From: Microcaldota archaeon
GTDB lineage: Archaea > Micrarchaeota > Micrarchaeia > Micrarchaeales > Micrarchaeaceae
Length of the DNA: 64,000 nt
Assembly (NCBI GenBank): GCA_021827995.1
Contig: JAKATK010000007.1
Location: 1 to 64,000 of the forward strand
Direction of reading: 5' to 3'
The notes under the pieces are model-generated. The model saw nothing but the letters and a program-made list of their open reading frames with translations, was not told where the DNA came from and made no database searches. The translations under genes and the position numbers were made by a program. This document shows, piece by piece, positions 41,874 to 42,252 of the stretch. Position 1 is the first letter of the stretch. Every line of letters begins with the position of its first letter.

Positions 41874-41883
41874 TATATTTAAA
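41874..41883 (+). promoter_or_regulatory. Box A upstream of the TBP-like gene
   Basis: TATATTTAAA predicts transcription from about 41902-41907, where GTGATTTTGCG lies. That GTG opens a 16-codon frame (to TAA 41951) that is not the TBP frame. Confidence 0.55.
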
Positions 41884-41952
41884 GCTTTCCGTTAAAGAAG
41901 TACTGGTGATTTTGCGCCAGCGAGCAAGGCCGTCTCACGCTCATCGGATGTT

Positions 41953-42252
41953 ATAAGGCCGGTCATAAAGGTACAGAACATAGTCGTCAGCGCGGACCTG
42001 CATGCCGTCATAGACCTGTACTCGCTGTCGCGCGACGTCAAGGCCGTTGACTACGAACCAGAGCAGTTCCCCGGCGCCATATTCAAGATTGCGGAGCCAA
42101 AGGCAGCGATAATACTGTTCAAGAACGGTAAGATGATCTGCACCGGCGCCAACACAGAGGCTAACATAAAGAAGGTCCTAGCCTATGCCGCCAAGATAAT
42201 ATCCAAGTATGTCATAGACGTGGGCGTGCAGAAGCAGCAGGCCAGCAAGTAG
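41953..42252 (+). CDS. Single-repeat TATA-binding-protein-like protein, start unclear
   Basis: About 100 residues. It matches one TBP repeat end to end: IKVQNIVVSADL, YEPEQFPGAIFKI, AEPKAAIILFKNGKMICTGA, then TEANIKKVLAYAAKII. Archaeal and eukaryotic TBPs have two such repeats in about 180-200 residues and bind the minor groove of box A. Here the frame opens only after a TAA at 41893, and the neighbouring gene leaves no room for another repeat. There is no ATG, GTG or TTG in frame before the conserved region; the first ATG is inside it. Either a rare start (GTT 41950 or ATA 41953) is used, or there is an indel near 41906-41950. As a one-repeat protein it would need to dimerise. Confidence 0.85.
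   Translation: MRPVIKVQNIVVSADLHAVIDLYSLSRDVKAVDYEPEQFPGAIFKIAEPKAAIILFKNGKMICTGANTEANIKKVLAYAAKIISKYVIDVGVQKQQASK

Follow-up and report, generated by a model that had tools for sequence, protein, structure and literature searches.

A 64,000-nucleotide stretch of Micrarchaeota DNA (contig JAKATK010000007.1; hereafter the window) carries a gene, paralogue A, for a TATA-binding protein (TBP) that consists of a single lobe. Paralogue A is probably a functional TBP, whose DNA-binding saddle is formed, most likely, by two lobes, either A together with a second one-lobe protein of the same genome (B), or two copies of one protein, or both. It is most likely translated from a weak near-cognate start codon. 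Judged from the sequences compared, the one-repeat TBP extends beyond this genome and characterises much of two DPANN phyla. The features of the region are the following:

41874..41884, plus strand: box A or TATA-like element TATATTTAAAG, seen in the sequence, with TATTTAAA-type elements similarly spaced 5' of the orthologues
41896..42252, plus strand: one-lobe TBP gene, paralogue A, given as a stop-to-stop frame (PF00352, E 8.5e-25; dN/dS 0.02-0.09)
41905..41910, plus strand: Shine-Dalgarno-like GGTGAT; GGTG is conserved 5' of the A orthologues, mostly 5 nt before ACG or ATG
41914..41916, plus strand: start-codon position as conserved in the relatives, occupied by GCG in the window (by ACG in 49, ATG in 17 and ATA in 1 of the other orthologues)
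41953..41955, plus strand: in-frame ATA just before the lobe, an alternative near-cognate start, seen in the sequence
41965..42210, plus strand: single TBP lobe with the intercalating Phe positions, the Asn and Thr DNA-contact positions and the YEPEQFPG stirrup (profile match, alignment, AlphaFold)

The frame of A encodes 118 amino acids, lies directly behind an in-frame stop at 41893-41895 and ends with a stop codon at 42250-42252; apart from the single PF00352 lobe it is empty, as the initial annotation had proposed. The profile match spans positions 2-85 of 85 and scores 86.8 bits against a cut-off of 22.9. The best matches of the lobe are solved archaeal TBPs, whose N and C halves are matched about equally. 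An AlphaFold run on the single sequence gave a poor model, and an alignment-based run with a mean pLDDT of 90 was used instead; in Foldseek this model superposes on most solved TBPs with an rmsd of 0.8-1.7 Å (about 1 Å over about 80 residues). In an alignment of 24 diverse lobes, Phe40 and Phe57 are unvarying and almost every residue of YEPEQFPGAI is invariant, YEPEQFPG itself being invariant or nearly so. The charged L3 residues of this stirrup loop are, in the C lobe of an ordinary TBP, the reported contact of TFB (PMC7221094). The full-length match, the lobe fold and the Phe and stirrup residues place A in the TBP superfamily, but its single lobe keeps it out of the canonical two-repeat TBPs, which have two tandem lobes per chain: against the two-lobe NCBIfam models its match extends over half of each, and it scores about 81 bits, where the cut-offs are 181-347. 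The curated TBP families are all two-lobe. Compared with the canonical archaeal and eukaryotic TBP (PRK00394 / NF001592-NF001601, two PF00352 repeats), A is half the length, shares the lobe fold, the Phe positions, the stirrup and the Asn/Thr DNA contacts, and is presumed to play a similar role.

Among pairs with relatives that have a finite dS, the dN/dS of A is 0.02-0.09, and the own branch of the window's gene carries 12 synonymous and 2 nonsynonymous changes. By these measures A is under strong purifying selection, and a pseudogene is ruled out.

The genome to which the window belongs is a Micrarchaeota MAG of 1.26 Mb in 22 contigs, 88% complete. The initial annotation had called for a search of the rest of the genome for a two-repeat TBP; none is present in the assembled MAG, which instead gave three PF00352 matches of one lobe each, namely A, B on contig C2 and a divergent lobe on contig C3. 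Because of the 88% completeness, the absence of a two-repeat TBP partly rests on closed relatives. One TFB frame was found in this genome, with two cyclin repeats. The third lobe (L137:8786-9151, PF00352 E 2e-10) is degenerate, having lost YEPEQFPG and KNGK, and its neighbours are a ParB-like gene, an IS200-type transposase and a tyrosine integrase, a probable integrated mobile element; the lobe is possibly a TBP mimic encoded by that element.

Homologues of A were found in relatives and have the same one-lobe architecture. In the GTDB-type family of the archaeon itself (f1), almost every genome has exactly two single-lobe matches, including the single-contig genomes G012, G013, G028 and G034, and in a second family (f2) there are one or two per genome, the single-contig G039 among them. 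Two-match genomes whose sequences were compared pair an A with a B. Where an f2 genome has a second copy, it is of the A type, and many f2 genomes have a B-like gene alone. One-lobe TBPs are the sole TBPs detected in almost all sampled genomes of both families, closed genomes included. A few genomes of relatives had no PF00352 match, probably owing to gaps in incomplete assemblies. A canonical two-repeat TBP lies on contig C43 of G014 (L004), an otherwise one-lobe genome, and this contig is probably a contaminant. About 12 of the sampled Micrarchaeota families are one-lobe and about 9 have two lobes per frame, as judged by open-frame length; most of the Iainarchaeota genomes found via L110 have one-lobe frames.

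No orthologue of A is a normal two-repeat gene, and the one-repeat reading stands. An assembly error hiding a first repeat, which the initial annotation had also considered, is contradicted by relatives with the same one-lobe architecture, closed genomes included, and a frameshift or indel restoring such a repeat is ruled out because the relatives are built alike; as an artefact, the one-lobe architecture is already refuted. Of the explanations left by the annotation, a living one-repeat TBP is favoured over a reduced paralogue or an artefact by the absence of a two-repeat TBP from the genome and its closed relatives and by the purifying selection on A.

In an ordinary TBP the two halves pair through an edge strand, which lies exposed in a lone lobe, and dimerisation is therefore the natural reading. 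The TATA-binding saddle would be built of two separate lobes, joined via their central strands as the halves of an ordinary TBP are, either as an A-B heterodimer or as homodimers; the steady A and B pair of f1 suggests the heterodimer, and genomes with a single gene the homodimer. Natural fused dimers of this kind of lobe exist in relatives, and these two-repeat forms could be covalent versions of the lobe dimers, re-fused several times in related lineages. With the TFB-binding stirrup and the intercalating phenylalanines kept in each lobe, the single two-cyclin TFB would dock on the saddle and set its polarity through the BRE. TFB-BRE contacts set promoter polarity in archaea, so that a symmetric or near-symmetric TBP would be workable. 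A symmetric TBP might leave palindromic promoters; the hexamers enriched upstream of genes are rich in A and T and to some extent directional, and these data are noisy. For the one-lobe TBP we infer both dimerisation and contact with TFB.

Paralogue A might instead be reduced and stand outside general transcription, as a regulator or antagonist of B, the B homodimer being the working TBP. Such a role is conceivable, if rather unlikely. Only a B-like gene is present in many f2 genomes, A stands on a long stem (0.81) in the lobe tree, and its weak start suggests a low dose, but A has retained the DNA-contact and TFB-stirrup residues, has the low dN/dS given above, and is maintained alongside B in almost all f1 genomes. 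We accordingly prefer A as a functional TBP lobe.

The two-repeat TBPs of Micrarchaeota and Iainarchaeota bear on the ancestry of this lobe. In the lobe trees, the single, N and C lobes of these two groups form one clade apart from the canonical N and C lobes (support 100/89 and 99/96). AU tests reject a grouping of the canonical N lobes with the Micrarchaeota/Iainarchaeota N lobes (p 0.002) and marginally reject the latter being held together alone (p 0.044). The N and C halves of the two-repeat TBPs in these groups are about 71% identical on average and up to 84% in L188; for the canonical TBPs compared, the values are 41-53%. Because both halves group with single lobes, away from the canonical ones, and are so alike, these two-repeat TBPs appear to have arisen by duplicating a one-lobe TBP anew. 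Several fusions are likely, since the N and C halves are sisters within some proteins, such as L147 (99/92) and L188 (98/66); alternatively, the halves may have evolved in concert, as gene conversion could mimic repeated re-duplication. On the approximately 82 columns of the lobe trees a primitive and a reduced one-lobe state are not separable, and we regard it as doubtful that the one-lobe TBP is the surviving pre-duplication form, with ancestors that were never two-repeat and two-repeat TBPs arising independently here and in the other archaea and eukaryotes.

Several unusual TBP frames were seen among these relatives. At a contig end (G059 contig C39, L194), two in-frame tandem lobes are identical over about the first 100 compared bases, which makes them either a two-repeat TBP that has only just arisen or an artefact of assembly at the contig end. 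An Iainarchaeota frame of 726 aa (L187:463-2640, G217 contig C8) contains four divergent TBP lobes, and two other Iainarchaeota TBPs, L188 and L190, carry a long Lys/Ala-rich tail resembling histone H1, at the C-terminus in the former and at the N-terminus in the latter.

The start of A is unusual as well. As noted in the initial annotation, the frame contains no ATG, GTG or TTG ahead of the lobe, counting from the upstream stop, and the box A it had recognised does stand about 26 nt 5' of GGTG. Most A orthologues read GGTG-N5-ACG-GCN-AAR 5' of the lobe. The codon at the start position is ACG in 49 of 69 orthologues (five of them assigned by eye, with GGTG altered or cut off), ATG in 17, ATA in one (L037), GCG in the window's gene and unresolved in one; ACA, ACC and ACT occur there in none of the 69. 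Within the lobes of the same genes the Thr codons are mixed (ACA 74, ACC 69, ACG 47, ACT 37). The position of ACG is occupied by ATG in L078-L080 and L082, and the Met-Ala-Lys start of the f2 A genes is aligned with the ACG-Ala-Lys of f1. At least 10 A orthologues have no standard start codon in frame; some others have in-frame standard codons downstream, and L035 and L036 have an in-frame GTG. In the relative Ca. Micrarchaeum harzensis A_DKE, whose chromosome carries A at 156040-156282 and B at 786685-786930, 5 nt is the commonest spacing from GGTG to the start (ATG 30/53, TTG 15/22). Since ACG and ATG exchange at one spot, no other Thr codon occurs there and the Shine-Dalgarno spacing is kept, ACG behaves as a start codon in the family. 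Across the relatives it is kept or exchanged for start-like codons, the window's gene having GCG. The retention by relatives of ACG at the ATG position behind a Shine-Dalgarno element favours an unusual start over an indel, the two possibilities raised in the annotation.

In the mechanism that we propose, ACG would be read as Met by the initiator tRNA at low efficiency, probably keeping A scarce or self-limiting. In Sulfolobus, initiation at non-canonical codons is reportedly disfavoured by aIF1 (PMC8211752), and low-efficiency initiation at ACG is expected for this reason. The weak start may thus have a dosage or autoregulatory role.

Translation might instead begin at the GTG within GGTG, on a short-leader mRNA, and reach the TBP frame by a programmed frameshift. 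Most orthologues have kept that GTG, close to the predicted 5' end, but its frame is 2 to 37 codons long, variable and unconserved, no common slippery sequence was seen among the orthologues, L081 and L083, which carry a GGAGG-type element and lack that GTG, still have ACG, and in L078-L080 and L082 it is ATG that replaces ACG at the same spot. This route is very improbable, and the short, unconserved other frame rules it out. Nor do we give much credence to C-to-U RNA editing of ACG into AUG before translation: ACG is one transition from ATG and ACG-to-AUG editing occurs in chloroplasts, but we know of no C-to-U mRNA editing in archaea, near-cognate initiation without editing is the simpler route, and the window's GCG would not be rescued. 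It is extremely unlikely that the gene is truly two-repeat or ordinarily started and was disguised by an assembly or base error, since the one-lobe build and the missing ATG, GTG or TTG recur in many independent genomes, closed ones too, although the sequence is that of a MAG and a single-base error is possible at the window's GCG, unique among the 69 orthologues. Direct initiation at a near-cognate codon is the preferred reading, and for the window's own gene the candidate explanations are a weak start at GCG 41914-41916, a start at ATA 41953, or a base error behind GCG.

Nearly all archaea and eukaryotes have a TBP, commonly held to derive from the duplication of a single lobe. Brindefalk et al. 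2013 reportedly described single-TBP-domain (monopartite) proteins in some archaea, which are said to be stand-alone one-domain TBPs like A; that archaea can have one-lobe TBPs at all must therefore count as known. The abstract of that work is said to mention neither lineages in which such a protein is the sole TBP, nor secondary fusions, nor an ACG start. The literature searched yielded nothing direct on a one-repeat TBP in DPANN or on ACG starts in archaea. As far as we found, what is new is that one-lobe TBPs are the sole TBPs of whole lineages, that secondary fusions occur in the same phyla, and that an ACG start is conserved. E. coli infC, a self-limiting initiation factor gene, has an AUU start; like A it would be a gene for a gene-expression factor in which a weak start codon is conserved, with AUU and a translation initiation factor in infC and ACG and a transcription factor in A. 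A single lobe that binds nucleic acid by itself is known in the N-terminal TBP-like domain of RNase HIII (PMC4132731), which differs from A in being fused to a nuclease and not being a promoter factor.

Whole lineages thus appear to transcribe with undoubled lobes, and sister lineages hold recent fusions of the same lobe. The old duplication of TBP becomes open to study in living forms, as A/B heterodimers, homodimers and fused dimers, all made of nearly identical lobes, could be compared in vitro, and the question is raised of how promoter polarity is set under a symmetric TBP. The conserved ACG start stands in a core archaeal gene and is without precedent in the literature searched.

Beyond the TBP genes, GGTGNTTNNACGSC occurs once in the genome of the window, below its reversed control, and in 400 kb of A_DKE no enrichment of ACG was found 5 nt after GGTG, whereas ATG and TTG are enriched at that distance; in A_DKE, ACG does not serve as a start codon generally. 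A possible second ACG-started gene, suggested by its sequence, is a thymidine-kinase frame on the minus strand of the A_DKE chromosome (84561-85146, L165), which has GGGGTG-N6-ACG at its 5' end and whose next standard start falls inside the conserved N-terminus.
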